Source: Bradyrhizobium sp. WSM3983
Lineage (GTDB): Bacteria; Pseudomonadota; Alphaproteobacteria; Rhizobiales; Xanthobacteraceae
NCBI RefSeq assembly: GCF_000473045.1
Contig: NZ_AXAY01000003.1
Coordinates: forward strand, 1 to 64,000
DNA length: 64,000 nt
Direction of reading: 5' to 3'
Shown here: positions 52,375 to 64,000 of the stretch, in pieces
Layout: every line of letters begins with the position of its first letter
Position numbering within the stretch: position 1 is the first letter of the stretch
Translations under genes and position numbers: made by a program
The notes under the pieces: generated by a model
Databases searched by the model: none
The model's input: the letters and a program-made list of their open reading frames with translations, nothing else
Told to the model about the DNA's origin: nothing

Positions 52375-52653
52375 ATGTCGCATACAATCAAGCACAAGTC
52401 GAAGCTCGTCGGCCGGGTCCGGCGCATCAAGGGGCAGCTCGAGGCCGTTGAACGCGCGCTCGAGCAGGAGATCGGCTGCGCTGATGTGCTGATGCTGGTG
52501 GCTTCCGTGAAAGGCGCGATCAGCGGTCTCACCACCGAGCTGCTGGAAGATCACATCCGCCATCACGTCGTGGATCCAGCGTACGAACAGGATCCGGAGA
52601 AGGCCAAGGGTGCCGCCGACCTTATCGATGTCGTCCGAACCTATTTGAAGTGA
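52375..52653 (+). CDS. rcnR: Nickel/cobalt-responsive repressor RcnR (92 aa)
   Basis: A CsoR/RcnR-family all-helical repressor that leaves DNA on binding metal. The four Ni/Co ligands known for E. coli RcnR all fall at the same positions: His3, Cys35, His60 and His64 (MSHTIKHK, IGCADVLM, EDHIRHHVV). This separates it from FrmR and CsoR relatives. The basic surface RVRRIKGQLEAVERALEQ binds DNA. It directly precedes and likely controls rcnA; its stop codon TGA (52651-52653) overlaps a possible GTG start of rcnA. Confidence 0.92.
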   Translation: MSHTIKHKSKLVGRVRRIKGQLEAVERALEQEIGCADVLMLVASVKGAISGLTTELLEDHIRHHVVDPAYEQDPEKAKGAADLIDVVRTYLK

Positions 52654-52658
52654 ACGAG

Positions 52659-53720
52659 ATGACCGACCTGTCTCACCTGCTCCAGCAGAGCAGCGCGCAT
52701 GCATGGATGTTCGTGCCCAGTGCGATCCTGCTCGGTGCCCTGCACGGTCTCGAGCCCGGGCATTCCAAGACCATGATGGCCGCGTTCATCATCGCCATCA
52801 GGGGAACCGTGCTCCAGGCTGTGCTGCTCGGCCTGTCGGCGACCATCTCCCATACCGCCATCGTCTGGGCGATCGCGCTGGCGGGATTGTCTTTCGGCCA
52901 GGAATTGTCCGGCGAACGCAGCGAGGCCTATCTGCAACTGGCGTCCGCCGTCATCATCATCGGCATCGCCGGCTGGATGGTCTGGCGCACCTGGCGGGAG
53001 CAGAATCACGAGCATGACCATCATCACCACGACGAGCCGCACCCCATCTCGTTGGCCGGCTTGCCGCTGCTGATCGAGGTGTTCGAAGGCGACGTGCCGC
53101 CTCACTGGCGGATCTGGAGCGAGACCGGCGCGCTTCCCGCAGCCCGCGACATCGAGGTGACCACGATCCGCGAAGACGGTACGGCCCAGACATTCGCGTT
53201 CGCCGCTTGCGATGGATACCTCGAAAGTGTCGAGGAGATTCCCGAGCCGCATGCGTTCAAGGCGCGTATCGCACTTGCCGGCGACTCCATCGAGATACTG
53301 TTTAGCGAGCACGATCACGACCACATGTATCTCGGCGAAGAGGACGACGCTCATGCGCGCGCCCACGCCGCCGACATCCGCAAGCGCTTTGGGGGACGCA
53401 ACGTGACGACGGCGCAGATCGTGCTGTTCGGCCTCACCGGCGGACTGATCCCCTGTCCCGCCGCGATCACCGTACTGCTGCTTTGTATTCAGCTGAAGCA
53501 GTTCAGCCTCGGCTTTGTCCTGGTGCTGTCCTTCGGCATCGGCCTTGCGATCACGATGGTGTCGGCGGGCGTTCTCGCGGCGCTCAGCCTGCGGCACGTC
53601 GAACGACACTGGGGCGGCTTCAGCCGCTACGCCCACCGCGCGCCCTATGTCTCGGCAGCCCTGATCGTCTTCGTCGGTCTGTACACCGGCTGGACCGGTC
53701 TGCACGAACTGGTCTCGTGA
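52659..53720 (+). CDS. rcnA: Nickel/cobalt efflux protein RcnA (353 aa)
   Basis: A NicO-family membrane exporter. The first helix ends in the metal motif HGLEPGHSKT (residues 29-38), and FGLTGGLIPCPAAITVLLL and LSFGIGLAITMV mark the C-terminal helices. A His-rich loop (EHDHHHHDEPH) starts near 115 and another follows near 220 (EHDHDHM). Between them is a ~100-residue domain (PLLIEVFEGDVPPHWRIWSE...FAACDGYLESVEEIPEPH) that makes the protein longer than E. coli RcnA. The start may also be the GTG at 52650, coupled to rcnR. Confidence 0.92.
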   Translation: MTDLSHLLQQSSAHAWMFVPSAILLGALHGLEPGHSKTMMAAFIIAIRGTVLQAVLLGLSATISHTAIVWAIALAGLSFGQELSGERSEAYLQLASAVIIIGIAGWMVWRTWREQNHEHDHHHHDEPHPISLAGLPLLIEVFEGDVPPHWRIWSETGALPAARDIEVTTIREDGTAQTFAFAACDGYLESVEEIPEPHAFKARIALAGDSIEILFSEHDHDHMYLGEEDDAHARAHAADIRKRFGGRNVTTAQIVLFGLTGGLIPCPAAITVLLLCIQLKQFSLGFVLVLSFGIGLAITMVSAGVLAALSLRHVERHWGGFSRYAHRAPYVSAALIVFVGLYTGWTGLHELVS

Positions 53721-53723
53721 CGA

Positions 53724-53749
53724 GCAGCGGCGCGGTATCCGCTGCTTTT
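53724..53749 (+). terminator. Intrinsic terminator of rcnRA
   Basis: GCAGCGG (53724-53730), loop CGCGGTAT, CCGCTGC (53739-53745), then TTTT. A classic Rho-independent terminator just after the rcnA stop codon. Confidence 0.8.
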
Positions 53750-53753
53750 CCGG

Positions 53754-54674
53754 TTAGCCTTTCGCGCTCGCAGTCTTGTCGAGCGCGGCACGCAGGCCCT
53801 TGGCGAGCTTGACCGCGTCGTCATTGGCCCAGAAGTGCATGAAGAACAGCCGTGGCTGCTCGTCCAGCATGTGGCTGTGCAACGCCGTCACCTCGATGCC
53901 ATTCGCCAGCAGCGCCGTAATCACCGGGTTCACCTCGTCACCCGACAGAACGAAGTCGCCGGTGATGGCAGCCTTGCCGTTGCCGGTTGGCTGGAAGTTG
54001 ATGCCGATCGCGACGCCCATCGCCCCGACGGGTGTGAGCGGCATGCCCTCCTGTGTGATCGGATCGCGACGCTTGACGTTGAATTGGTAGACGCCGCCAT
54101 TGGCCTGGCCCTTCGCGCCGATGATCTGGTCGAGCTTGGCTGTATCGAGATCGACGGCAGGCGGCGGATTGGCCGGTGCGGCAACGGTCAGCGGAGTCTT
54201 GCTCTCGGCGAGTGCATCGTGGATCGCAGAGGCCAGCTTGACGGGGTCCCCGTGTCCCGCGACATGCATGTAGAACGTCGCCGGGCTCGCACGCAGCAGA
54301 TGATTGTGCACGGCTGTGATCTCGAGACCGCTCGCGATCATCTTCGCCATCACGGGATTGATCTCGGTCTCGAGCAGCACGAGGTCGCCCATGACCATGG
54401 CGCCGCCATGGGAAGGCTTGAACGCCACCCAGCCGCCGAGGGCCAGCGCCGGCTTGATCGCGACCCCGTCCAGGGTCACAGAGAGATCGCTGCGCGGAAA
54501 CCCGTATCGGTGAACGTCATCCGAGACGGCGGCCTTGCGGCCGAGCGTTTGGTCGATCGCCTGCCAATTGACGTCTTCCGCCCGCGCCGGCGCGACGAAT
54601 TGCGCGGCGAGCGATGCTGGACCCACGACAGCGGCCAGCAAGAAGGCTGCGTGACAGATTGTTCGTAGTCGCAT
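53754..54674 (-). CDS. DUF1259 exported protein, duplicated domain (306 aa)
   Basis: A signal peptide (residues about 1-32, ending PARA) is followed by two DUF1259 (LppY/LpqO-type) domains. In each the order is a DxxLGRK/IIGAKG start, GVAIKPALALGGWVAFKP or MGVAIGINFQPTG, DLVLLETEINPVM or DFVLSGDEVNPVITALLANG, and a paired His motif (HNHLLRASPATFYMHVAGHG and HSHMLDEQPRLFFMHFW). The His pairs suggest metal binding, but the function is unknown. ATG 54674 is chosen because AGGAG lies 7 nt upstream. It is convergent with rcnA. Confidence 0.88.
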   Translation of the reverse strand: MRLRTICHAAFLLAAVVGPASLAAQFVAPARAEDVNWQAIDQTLGRKAAVSDDVHRYGFPRSDLSVTLDGVAIKPALALGGWVAFKPSHGGAMVMGDLVLLETEINPVMAKMIASGLEITAVHNHLLRASPATFYMHVAGHGDPVKLASAIHDALAESKTPLTVAAPANPPPAVDLDTAKLDQIIGAKGQANGGVYQFNVKRRDPITQEGMPLTPVGAMGVAIGINFQPTGNGKAAITGDFVLSGDEVNPVITALLANGIEVTALHSHMLDEQPRLFFMHFWANDDAVKLAKGLRAALDKTASAKG

Positions 54675-54949
54675 GGTCATTCTCCTGGTGTTCCTGCCCC
54701 AGGTCGAATCCGTTTTCGGCTCAGGCATTCGCAACCGTGCGCGCCGACGCATGCCGCGCGAGGCGAATGAGCCACTCTGTCGAACGAAACGGAGGTGTAG
54801 GAAATGGACATGCTGCGCCCTTGGTGATCAGGACGCGATGCTTGGGCATGTCGCCTCGCGGGGAGACCGCATATCCCCGATGGCTCGAATAGAAGCCCGG
54901 AGGTCCAAGCTGTCAACCGCGTGCAATCCGTGGCCCTTCGAAAAGATTT

Positions 54950-55127
54950 GATCGATCAAATGGAACGAAATCGATTGCGCCCGTCCCGCCCACCGCACAA
55001 AACAGCCGCTTCGTTCGCGTCTTCGAAGCCCTCGCCGCCGTCGGCATCGCGGCGCGACCGGCCATCTACGATGAAAGCTTCACTGATGCGGTCCGCGAGC
55101 AACTGCTTGCGGTCGACGGCGTGCTTG
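54950..55127 (+). pseudogene. N-terminal remnant of a Cj0069-family (ATP-grasp-like) gene
   Basis: In one frame the plus strand reads PPTAQNSRFVRVFEALAAVG then IAARPAIYDESFTDAVREQL and LAVDGVLV. I recognise this as the start of Cj0069-family proteins. Neither a credible start codon nor the remaining ~300 codons is present; the frame runs into the end of cbtA at 55130. It looks like a deletion remnant. Family assignment is from memory of the motif. Confidence 0.5.
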
Positions 55128-55129
55128 TC

Positions 55130-55939
55130 TCAAGCGCGCTGGTTTGCGCCGCGGCCGAAACGCGCGAACACCGCGCTGGTCAGACCGCCGAGCAAGGTCC
55201 AGAACACCAGGCTCGTCACCGTCACCGCCGTGACGAACTGATGCGTCAGCGACGACGGCACGTTGGTCTCGATGTTGGCGAGCTCCGGCGCGCCGATCAG
55301 ATGCGGCAGCGTCAGCAGGATTACGCCGGCGATTGCCGCCGGCACCGAGCGGCGGAAGGCAATCAAGGCGAGCCCGCCGGCCGTGGCCAGCACGGCGGCC
55401 AGCCACCAGATCTGGCGCGACAACAGCGGCGCGACAGGCACACCGGGGAGCTCGGGCGGCAGGCCGAGGCCGGGCGCAAGCGTAAAGACGGCAAAGCCCG
55501 CCAGGCCCCACAGCAGGCCTTCGTGCCAGGAGACGTTGGCCCCGGTGGCGCCGCTGCGCACGGCGAAGAAGCCAGCCAGCAGCAGGGCGAAGCCGATCGC
55601 GGTCAGGATATTGGCGGCGGCGGTATAGGCGTTGCGCTCAAAACCATCGCGCGGCTCCCATGCCCCGGCGCCATGGTCGTGGTCGCCGGCGCCATGGTCG
55701 CCGTGATCATGGGCGGCATGGTCATGATCTGCGTGGTCATGATCTGCGTGGTCATGCCCGGTCGTTGCGGGCTGCGCAGTGGCCGGAGCCTCATGCTGGT
55801 GCATCTCCGCCGCCTTCTCGAAGACTTCCGCCTTCAGAATCAGGGGGACGGTGCCGAACTGCTGGACGACAGTGACGATGAGACCGACGATGAAACCGGC
55901 AATGACCGACGCGAAGACGATCGAGCGAAATGTGCTCAT
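55130..55939 (-). CDS. cbtA: CbtA-family cobalt transporter (269 aa)
   Basis: A predicted inner-membrane cobalt transporter subunit. The first helix (RSIVFASVIAGFIVGLIVTV) is followed by a His/Asp-rich external loop of about residues 60-92 (GHDHADHDHADHDHAAHDHG), then AYTAAANILTAIGFALLLAG and about four more helices, including HEGLLWGLAGFAVFTLAPGL and LPPELPG. Both are CbtA signatures. The His loop is encoded by imperfect tandem DNA repeats. It starts 10 nt after the cbtB stop. Confidence 0.92.
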   Translation of the reverse strand: MSTFRSIVFASVIAGFIVGLIVTVVQQFGTVPLILKAEVFEKAAEMHQHEAPATAQPATTGHDHADHDHADHDHAAHDHGDHGAGDHDHGAGAWEPRDGFERNAYTAAANILTAIGFALLLAGFFAVRSGATGANVSWHEGLLWGLAGFAVFTLAPGLGLPPELPGVPVAPLLSRQIWWLAAVLATAGGLALIAFRRSVPAAIAGVILLTLPHLIGAPELANIETNVPSSLTHQFVTAVTVTSLVFWTLLGGLTSAVFARFGRGANQRA

Positions 55940-55949
55940 GCCACCCCGG

Positions 55950-56156
55950 TTAGTGGCAGGGGAACGCGTTCGAATGGCGGACGTCGTGGGCCGCGTTGTG
56001 GACGACGTCGATGTGCGAGAAGCCGACCATGCCGATCACGAACACGCCGAGCACCATGGCCATCAGAGCCTGTGACAGCCGTCCCACCTGGCCGGCGGCG
56101 ACCGGAAGCGTGACCTGGGCCGTGACCGGGGCGTTGGCGAGCTGGGATTGGCTCAT
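55950..56156 (-). CDS. cbtB: CbtB-family cobalt transporter subunit (68 aa)
   Basis: A single-helix protein (MAMVLGVFVIGMVGFSHIDV) ending in the CbtB signature HNAAHDVRHSNAFPCH. CbtB is the small partner of CbtA, often controlled by a cobalamin riboswitch, but none was recognised here. It follows a DUF1488-like reading frame by 2 nt, so the three genes probably share a transcript. It starts at ATG 56156. Confidence 0.92.
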   Translation of the reverse strand: MSQSQLANAPVTAQVTLPVAAGQVGRLSQALMAMVLGVFVIGMVGFSHIDVVHNAAHDVRHSNAFPCH

Positions 56157-62314: not shown

Positions 62315-62668
62315 TCAGGTGTCACCTCCTTCCGTCGTGATCAGATCGCGACCGTCCAAGTATGCGCCGGTCAAGGCTCTCGCGAAGGCCCAGATCTGTG
62401 TCGTGCAGCTCCAGCACGAGACGGCACTCAGGACCGCCAACATCTCGATCATGTTCCCAGCGCCGTTCCAGGCGGCCGGCTCTCCGCGCCCAAGCATCGA
62501 CCACGGCATCAGCAGCGTCACGAGTTCGCCTCGGCGGTAGCAGTCATAGTCACAGTAGCGGCGCTGTGTCCGCACATGCCGGACATAGCCGGATCGGATC
62601 GACCGCGAGCATGTGCTGCACGTCGCCGCGCATGATGGGGGTTCGTGATTGACCAGCACGAAGTTCAT
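62315..62668 (-). CDS. Cys-finger protein C with hydrophobic C-terminus (117 aa)
   Basis: A C-x2-C-x18-C-x3-C finger (CSTCSRSIRSGYVRHVR... YCDYDCY, about residues 17-44) is followed by a hydrophobic segment (NMIEMLAVLSAVSCWSC, about 72-90). No named domain is recognised. The start FVLVNHEPP and the YCDY.CY motif are shared with the upstream gene, so the two are paralogues. Its ATG (62668) overlaps that gene's stop by 4 nt, implying coupled translation. It could be a membrane-anchored zinc-binding protein. Confidence 0.7.
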   Translation of the reverse strand: MNFVLVNHEPPSCAATCSTCSRSIRSGYVRHVRTQRRYCDYDCYRRGELVTLLMPWSMLGRGEPAAWNGAGNMIEMLAVLSAVSCWSCTTQIWAFARALTGAYLDGRDLITTEGGDT

Positions 62669-62853
62669 GAAGCCGCCCTCACGCGATCGTTCGCGAGGGC
62701 CTCGCAGAACAACGCGTAGCACTGATAATCGCAGTACGGCAGACGGGTCGCGATCTCGCGGAGATAGCTGCCGCTGATCGGCTCGCAGCACTGCATGCAC
62801 CACGCCTGCCGGAATGGGGTCCGGCCGTTCACCAGCACGAACGCGAATCTCAA
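62665..62853 (-). CDS. Cys-finger protein B, TTG start (62 aa)
   Basis: The protein is essentially a finger: FVLVNGRTPFRQAWCMQCCE, then YCDYQCYALFCEALAN (C-x2-C-x18-C-x3-C). The TTG at 62853 has GGGAGGTG 3-4 nt upstream, and its sequence TTGA overlaps the stop of gene A. That start gives MRFAFVLVN, matching MNFVLVN of gene C, so TTG is strongly preferred over an upstream in-frame ATG at 62919. No function is known. Confidence 0.72.
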   Translation of the reverse strand: MRFAFVLVNGRTPFRQAWCMQCCEPISGSYLREIATRLPYCDYQCYALFCEALANDRVRAAS

Positions 62854-63242
62854 GTGGCACCTCCCAAAGCGAAGCAGTAAACGCTGTCCAGCGGAGACAC
62901 TGCAGGTGGTGGAGCGCAAAGATGGTTTCGGCCGTCCGGATTATCCCTGTTTCGTTCCACTTTTTGCGGCGGGACCGGAATGTATCTTCCGTCCTCCCTG
63001 CGCCGTGCATAGATCTGGCCGTCGATGTACTTGATATCGGTCGGATAGCAGTCAGCGCTGTTGCAGCAGCTGAGGCTCGGATTGTCCGGCATGTGCCAGG
63101 TCGAATAGAATTTTTCGTGCAGCCGCTGATCCTGGGGTGGGTGCTCGCGATGAACGGCGCCGTGTCCCGTCTCCTGCGCCTGGACCGTCGCGGTGGAGCA
63201 GAAGAGAACGATCGAGCACAAGAGCTTGCATGGGCGGTTCAA
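62850..63242 (-). CDS. Exported Cys-rich protein A (130 aa)
   Basis: A signal peptide (CKLLCSIVLFCSTATVQAQE) precedes a mature domain with SCCNSADCYPTDIKYIDGQI and YARRREDGRYIPVPPQKVER, NRDNPDGRNHLCAPP and a final CFALGG. The cysteines suggest disulfides in the periplasm. I recall similar proteins across Bradyrhizobium but know no function. It is the first gene of the three-gene overlapping chain and ends in TTGA with gene B. Confidence 0.78.
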   Translation of the reverse strand: MNRPCKLLCSIVLFCSTATVQAQETGHGAVHREHPPQDQRLHEKFYSTWHMPDNPSLSCCNSADCYPTDIKYIDGQIYARRREDGRYIPVPPQKVERNRDNPDGRNHLCAPPPAVSPLDSVYCFALGGAT

Positions 63243-63297
63243 GACACGGGCTCCCAGGATCAGACCTTCGGAACGATGTCACCTCTCCAATTCAGCC

Positions 63298-63507
63298 TCA
63301 CGCGCACTGAGCCCGGAACAACCACCGACGGTCGCGTTCGCGGCGTGTGCGGAAGCGATCGACACACTTCTTGGAGCAGAGCGCGGTGCGCCACGAGTAG
63401 TAGCGGATCAAACCAAATTTGCTGCCACACACCCCACAGCCGTTGGCTGAAGAGCACCCTTTGGACCCGGATAGGCCACCCTCAGGAAGTGCCGATGTAT
63501 CGCACAT
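63298..63507 (-). CDS. Small Cys-finger protein D (69 aa)
   Basis: The core CGVCGSKFGLIRYYSWRTAL then CSKKCVDRFRTRRERD is a C-x2-C-x16-C-x3-C finger with a basic tail, like proteins B and C but in a different sequence context. Such small fingers might bind nucleic acid or zinc. GGGAGATAACA precedes ATG 63507. It lies 55 nt upstream of gene A on the same strand, so the four genes may form one transcript. Confidence 0.72.
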   Translation of the reverse strand: MCDTSALPEGGLSGSKGCSSANGCGVCGSKFGLIRYYSWRTALCSKKCVDRFRTRRERDRRWLFRAQCA

Positions 63508-63715
63508 TGTTATCTCCCTCGTTGTGTTGCTTGCGCTCTTGCTCGTTGGTTCCCTTCGAATTCGCGCGGGTAGCGGCTTGCCGCGATCGCTGCTGCGCGT
63601 CGAGAATTGCAGCCGCCTCGACCTTGGTTGTCCGCCTGTCGGTAAGACGCCCCGGCGGCAAGCTCGGACCAGGTTCTCGTACGCTCGCTGCGACTGACTG
63701 GTCCCGATTGGACAT
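63482..63715 (-). CDS. Possible small basic protein (77 aa)
   Basis: The segment RLTDRRTTKVEAAAILDAQQ followed by RSRQAATRANSKGTNEQERK resembles short helical proteins seen in Bradyrhizobium. It overlaps the start of finger gene D by 26 nt in another frame, and its ribosome binding site is weak. The C-terminus looks poor. It could be real, a fragment, or chance. Confidence 0.3.
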   Translation of the reverse strand: MSNRDQSVAASVREPGPSLPPGRLTDRRTTKVEAAAILDAQQRSRQAATRANSKGTNEQERKQHNEGDNNVRYIGTS

Positions 63716-64000
63716 GAGCCTAGCCCGCCGGGCACGAGGCGCTCAATTGTACGGAGGTAAACGGCCGACATGATTAGGAATGAAGGAGCTAAACCTAGGT
63801 TTATCCGTACTCGCCCGGGGCTCCTGCGCTGACTCATGTTCAACGAGACGGCGCACGATGCTCCGGCTGCACGGTCACCGTGAAAACCTTGCTGGCACGG
63901 CTGACTTGACGCGCCGCGATGGCCGGGGCGGCGATCGGTCCGTTCAAAGGCGAACCTCATAACGGCCATCCGACTGAGGCCGGAATTGCTCCTCTCGCGG
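63716..64000. other. Right-edge region, no gene recognised (285 nt)
   Basis: No convincing coding frame, RNA gene or repeat is seen up to the window edge. A small inverted element (aaacctaggttta, 63791-63803) is a 13-nt near-palindrome of unknown meaning. Confidence 0.35.

Follow-up and report, generated by a model that had tools for sequence, protein, structure and literature searches.

The four small genes D, A, B and C of Bradyrhizobium sp. WSM3983 probably (we would put it at about 0.6) form part of a genus-specific two-component regulon, the outputs of which would be treble-clef microproteins, a secreted cysteine-rich protein and anti-Shine-Dalgarno small RNAs (sRNAs). In the model that we favor, D-A-B-C forms a small operon, the leftward transcription of which is driven by an activator-type promoter with two boxes, located at about 63718-63800 of the window (the whole 64,000-nucleotide stretch that was analyzed, in which positions are given unless otherwise stated). 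When the divergently encoded sensor kinase is active, the phosphorylated response regulator R1 would bind the two boxes upstream of TTGAGC-N17-yTAG and turn the operon on. Translation of B is coupled to that of A through their overlap and an internal ribosome-binding site, while B, C and D, as zinc-binding treble-clef microproteins, may serve as protein or RNA adaptors in the signaling output, with A as the exported partner of these fingers. The same element would mark the remainder of a Bradyrhizobium-specific regulon, comprising stand-alone fingers, suhB/MmgR-type sRNAs and NYN-domain genes whose leader is sRNA-like.

Layout and conservation of the D-A-B-C cassette

All four genes lie on the reverse strand. 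Gene D (63298-63507) encodes a 69-aa protein in which a C-x2-C-x16-C-x3-C finger is followed by an Arg-rich helix, and its end is separated by 55 nt from the start of gene A (62850-63242), which begins with TTG and encodes a Cys-rich protein of 130 aa. Protein A is probably exported, judging by eye from its signal-peptide-like N-terminus, and has five Cys in its mature part. Gene B (62665-62853; 62 aa, C-x2-C-x18-C-x3-C) likewise starts with TTG, here inside the TTGA (62850-62853) that contains the stop of A, and a GGGAGG ribosome-binding site for B (62860-62865, reverse strand) lies within the last codons of A. Gene C (62315-62668; 117 aa) combines a B-like finger having the same x18 spacing with a predicted C-terminal helix, and its start overlaps the stop of B in an ATGA (62665-62668). 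In these respects, the preliminary description of this DNA was accurate: the coordinates of both 4-nt stop/start overlaps, the 55-nt gap, the C-x2-C-x(16-18)-C-x3-C fingers of B, C and D, and the FVLVN and YCDY-CY motifs common to B and C are as it had reported. Among the 598 stop-to-stop frames of the window that reach 60 aa, the Cys pattern occurs in four, namely the neighboring B, C and D and a single Cys-rich frame at another place, and the clustering of the three is thus not due to chance. The four Cys are invariant in each finger, in 36/36 aligned B/C sequences and 28/28 D sequences.

The junction between A and B is strictly maintained, with the 4-nt overlap and a GGAGG inside the last codons of A kept in 32/32 D-A-B-C loci. 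The TTG start of B, to which the preliminary description had drawn attention, is present but proves to be a local variant: over the 32 loci, the start codon is ATG in 18, GTG in 13 and TTG in 1, that of the genome studied here. The usual start of gene A among cassette loci is TTG or GTG. At the next junction, 17/32 loci have the 4-nt B/C overlap with a conserved N-terminus of C, and the conserved start of C lies about 40-70 nt 3' of the B stop in another 14/32; one locus (L143) has the ATGA with a broken C frame.

Median pairwise dN/dS over 31 cassette loci, calculated with our own implementation of a counting method, is 0.13 for D, 0.15 for A, 0.26 for B and 0.375 for C. A-D are genuine genes under purifying selection, and an antisense frame (62814-63773, forward strand) was for this reason set aside as a coding candidate. 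A codon-based gene caller called none of the four, whose codon scores are lower than that of any gene it called in the window, and thus their codon usage is atypical. Broken or truncated copies were observed of A (L133, L135 and L165), C (L136 and L143) and D (L122). Such copies, the odd codon usage and the presence of D on 20 plasmid records could suggest that the genes are relics of mobile or decaying DNA without a current role, but we consider this highly improbable in view of the purifying selection on all four genes and the strict conservation of overlap and promoter.

Distribution and the divergent sensor system

With a threshold of E<=1e-3, B has matches in 54 of 98 genomes of the genus, A in 51, D in 60 and C in 53. 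In a wider set of 297 genomes of the order, all three profiles match 6 genomes of the genus; outside it, the D profile yields two marginal matches (1.7e-4 and 7.2e-4), the A profile three weak ones and the B/C profile none. Relatives of D occur in 20 plasmid records, 19 of them from Bradyrhizobium, and a relative of B in one. The sole plasmid match outside Bradyrhizobium is a D relative with 63% identity on a Sinorhizobium chiapasense plasmid (NZ_CP133149.1, 54936-55148).

To describe the neighborhoods, we mapped 100 loci (L103-L202), of which 98 contain finger genes and two contain A alone; they were picked from the matches non-randomly (nearly all B/C matches, two D-A or A sets and, from two genomes, loci with D only). 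In 43/100 of these, cassette or finger genes are divergent to an R1-clade sensor kinase and a FixJ/NodW-type response regulator. The majority (35/43) represent one conserved site beside an SLT transglycosylase gene, and the other eight lie elsewhere (L113, L117, L119, L134, L137, L142, L167 and L173). The expectation that the genes would co-occur in relatives is borne out in part: 31 D-A-B-C loci are found at the SLT-adjacent site and one elsewhere, but many finger homologues are scattered as D-B pairs, D-C pairs and singles, mostly without A and without the sensor system. Six of the 10 mapped single-D loci (L105, L106, L126, L128, L129 and L130) contain, within the retrieved stretch, a gene for a related kinase or regulator, which was not counted as the R1-clade divergent type. 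In four loci, a further short stretch that matches A in its C-terminal portion lies upstream of D (L113, L142 and L167) or, where D is missing, of A (L134).

The intergenic region toward the kinase fills the remainder of the window (63801-64000, forward strand), with the called kinase start at contig position 64049, 49 bp past the window end. Domain searches of the proteins at our own-genome locus (L103) identify PAS, HisKA and HATPase domains in the kinase, a receiver and a GerE domain in R1, and a lone receiver in a second regulator, R2. The pairing of a HisKA/HATPase kinase with a receiver-GerE regulator is that of two-component systems of the NarL/FixJ type. The own-genome kinase (L103:9050-11032, 660 aa) lacks the DUF4118 domain that is present in its relatives at L110 and L137 (733 and 889 aa, respectively). 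In plasmid records, such regulators are annotated only as 'response regulator'.

Some A copies are broken, and 39/42 loci carrying A have the divergent R1-clade system. This almost exclusive placement beside the kinase is what would be expected if the cassette fed back on its own sensor system, with the fingers or exported A binding the kinase and setting its activity, and there is a precedent in the DUF1127 small proteins, which in Agrobacterium have the sensor kinase PhoR as a binding partner according to the accessible part of PMC12501420. We nonetheless think such feedback rather unlikely: fingers are also found without any sensor nearby, and the absence from the own-genome kinase of the N-terminal DUF4118 of its relatives leaves little for an exported partner to touch there.

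The two-box element, its candidate targets and its proposed regulator

In an alignment of the divergent region, we observe strongly conserved blocks. Two of these, with their starts 40 bp apart, are found again before fingers at unrelated loci, among them solitary D genes as well as C genes that lie far away from sensor genes. In the window, this two-box element spans 63742-63800 on the reverse strand (box 1, 63789-63800; box 2, 63742-63760), its box cores are 42 bp apart, equivalent to four helical turns, and we propose that it is a response-regulator operator. The promoter is predicted to be TTGAGC-N17-yTAG with the two boxes just upstream, an activator-type layout; here, the predicted -35 hexamer TTGAGC (63741-63746, reverse strand) is followed after 17 nt by the predicted -10 hexamer CTAGGC (63718-63723, reverse strand). 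Box 1 with the preceding ACAA presumably resembles the StyR and TodT boxes.

Searches with the pattern ACCTNNGTATNG-N28-TTACCTNCGTNCAATTGAG, allowing up to 3 mismatches and with the reversed pattern as the control, return three sites in the own genome (before the cassette, a single D gene and an NYN-domain gene of contig 7) and 108 sites in 40/60 genomes of the genus, with no control match in either case. Scanning the GTDB species collection for exact matches gives 77 sites, all in Bradyrhizobium-titled records, in a list that leans to cassette sites because the pattern was built from these. The spacing from the end of the element to a downstream TAG is largely fixed across the 77 sites, being 19 nt in 54, 18 nt in 8, 13 nt in 3 and 23 nt in 1; no such TAG was found in the scanned stretch at the other 11. 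Many finger loci (D-B, D-C and single) have neither the sensor system nor the element nearby.

The first recognized same-strand gene after the 77 exact sites is a finger in 53 cases (49 D and 4 C), an NYN-domain gene in 10 and something else in 14. In 11 of these last 14, a suhB/MmgR-type sRNA lies directly 3' of the element, and 7/8 scanned loci of this set pass the gathering cut-off of RF00519 (60.8-70.2 bits vs. 41). The sRNAs right after the element at these seven loci (L306, L314, L324, L329, L331, L345 and L372) come from several Bradyrhizobium species, and four further loci (L305, L315, L317 and L352) were counted by sequence likeness only. Like members of that family, the element-linked sRNAs carry a terminator hairpin and a CU-rich stretch that is unpaired. 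At L298, L359 and L361, no suhB/MmgR-type sRNA follows the element, and L298 has no match in the Rfam scan. The element at L361 precedes a D-type leader and then a group II intron, with no D within 2.5 kb. In the own genome, the four suhB-type matches all lack the element, and the sRNA part of the regulon is thus limited to other species.

The leader of the NYN-domain genes contains a CCUCCC stretch and a terminator-like hairpin that are common to 10 aligned sequences. It matches neither RF00519 nor any other Rfam family in L235 and L300, and the leader at L326 gives no match at E<=1. In the own genome, the element before the NYN-domain gene is at G000:C7:140046-140104 (L235, 6047-6105), and the leader there is a candidate sRNA absent from Rfam. 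Weaker element sites precede cysD-like, AcrB-like and receiver genes. Some of these precede AcrB-type pumps (L250 and L263), for which reason we considered the genistein locus BjG30 as a link; no such element is mentioned in the available portion of its report (PMC4070704).

The element tracks the clade of the R1 regulator. With an R1-clade cut that was placed once the gap in E-values (2.3e-88 vs. 6.2e-80) had become apparent, both are present in 40 of 60 genomes, the element alone in 0, the regulator alone in 3 (G004, G015 and G036, which have no site) and neither in 17 (Fisher p 2.9e-12, a figure that is inflated by shared descent). As a partial control, 11/17 genomes lacking both still hold a related regulator at E<=1e-50. 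The corresponding counts for finger genes and the element are 37 with both, 3 with the element only, 2 with fingers only and 18 with neither. Additionally, the sequence AEITVK precedes the recognition helix in 10/10 unlinked R1-clade regulators from element-bearing genomes, with S in place of its A in 8/8 controls. It is also found in 11/14 finger-adjacent regulators, but not in those of L106, L130 and L171, even though L171 has a good element. Near the 10 unlinked R1-clade genes, no element was found beyond weak matches with 5-6 mismatches in three. These three (L391, L396 and L397) lie about 1-2 kb from the genes.

The element-binding activator is, on these sequence grounds, most likely the FixJ/NodW-type R1 of the divergent sensor system. 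A doubtful but tenable alternative is that the element serves another regulator, with the sensor system a conserved neighbor only and the cassette controlled independently. Binding of R1 is something that we infer, 48/77 element sites have no sensor gene seen in their 8-kb loci (many of which are truncated), and the three linked regulators named above differ at the recognition helix; such independence sits poorly, however, with an R1-clade regulator in 40/40 element-bearing genomes vs. 3/20 without the element, and with the recurrence of the sensor system beside fingers at the eight loci outside the SLT locus.

A description of the element was not found in the open-access literature searched, a search in which the motif is not text-searchable and subscription papers were outside scope. 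A published FixJ consensus was likewise sought and not found in the accessible texts. The element is not shown in the available parts of studies based on ICA and transcription start sites (PMC10454721 and PMC4842269), of an sORF/sRNA study (PMC5082802) or of an sRNA survey (PMC3927594), and the accessible part of PMC12582566 adds nothing on targets.

Finger proteins and comparison with known systems

Searches of A-D against Pfam and NCBIfam gave no match over cut-off, and C and D stay below the gathering scores of zf-FCS (PF06467) and DUF2116 (PF09889) (10.9 vs. 22.4 bits for C and 12.3 vs. 26.8 for D). The predicted model of C has a mean pLDDT of 77.6, with about 83-89 by blocks in the finger region and a long predicted helix in the hydrophobic tail (residues 70-111). 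Foldseek ranks a C1 domain first (E 0.24), and entries for RING, MYND, HIT and LIM domains come next, none of these matches being significant. By VIA, the model of C aligns with Z up to 5.2 (46 residues, 2.0 A) to C1 domains and p44 of TFIIH, scores that may reflect a common arrangement, and matches two ribosomal chains, which we take to be L24e-like, at 21-23% identity. No other fold family stood out in its match list, where absence means little. For D, the model is of low quality (mean pLDDT 61), has a helix that begins at residue 46 and, at this low confidence, gives no PDB match. Profile comparison of D with B/C (hhalign) gives a probability of 21 and E of 0.001, with all four Cys in register. 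As for the proposed Cys4 site, the model of C is weakly similar to small zinc-binding domains.

The preliminary description had suggested a metal or redox module, in which the exported Cys protein and the Cys4 proteins would bind or move metal ions or thiols. The invariant Cys4 of each finger, the five Cys of mature A and the weak likeness of the C model to zinc-binding domains are compatible with this idea, whereas nothing found here points toward redox chemistry or toward metal handling as such, and the context is one of signaling. Four Cys of such spacing normally bind structural zinc, metal transporters and thiol enzymes do not recur among the called neighbors of 22 loci, and the shared promoter element instead links the genes to regulators and sRNAs; we thus regard such a module as decidedly unlikely. 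Elsewhere in the window (52375-56156), RcnR/RcnA-like and CbtA/CbtB-like genes (nickel or cobalt) were identified by eye.

Within the two-component regulon that we favor, an adaptor role for the fingers is suggested by analogy with the small proteins CcaF1 and DUF1127 of Alphaproteobacteria, which are tiny and bind RNA (CcaF1; PMC10253847) or a sensor kinase (DUF1127; PMC12501420). The likeness is functional only: judging from the accessible parts of these reports, B, C and D are unrelated to them in sequence, and Cys4 is absent from both. A bolder version of the same regulon, which we offer tentatively and with some doubt, is a private Bradyrhizobium riboregulatory switch, in which a NodW-like regulator would act through one operator on anti-Shine-Dalgarno sRNAs and on treble-clef proteins that in turn act on RNA or sRNA targets, with the cassette as its largest and most conserved output. 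If so, one signal would control translation as well as transcription.

For protein families that Pfam and NCBIfam leave unnamed, the proposed regulon provides a function-bearing context, and what was an isolated curiosity becomes a testable set of one regulator, one element and few targets. FixJ/NodW-kind sensor systems are numerous in rhizobia, and to our knowledge, few of those have known targets; an operator that is recognizable from its sequence alone makes this one directly checkable. If our reading is correct, two-component signaling would be joined to sRNA control in an agriculturally weighty genus.

Among known folds, the fingers are closest in pattern to the treble-clef zinc fingers (zf-FCS/MYM, DUF2116 and L24e-type), which have C-x2-C...C-x3-C with the last pair leading into a helix, as in the D and C models, but B, C and D reach no family cut-off and are genus-restricted. 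The kinase/regulator pair is probably similar to NodVW: NodVW/NwsAB and the FixLJ-type systems of Bradyrhizobium likewise combine a PAS kinase with a receiver-GerE regulator. Compared by domain layout alone, the system described here differs in its extra lone receiver, its divergent finger cassette and its two-box element. The element-linked sRNAs reach the family cut-off of the suhB/MmgR/AbcR group (RF00519; described in the accessible part of PMC7143759) but differ in being driven by a Bradyrhizobium-specific element, which those of the own genome are not. Finally, the two-box layout has a counterpart in StyS/StyR, where, in the available portion of PMC2442086, a regulator of the same broad kind has a site near -40 and a second one farther upstream. 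StyS/StyR controls catabolic genes in Pseudomonas, whereas the targets here, if R1 binds as we infer, would be fingers and sRNAs.
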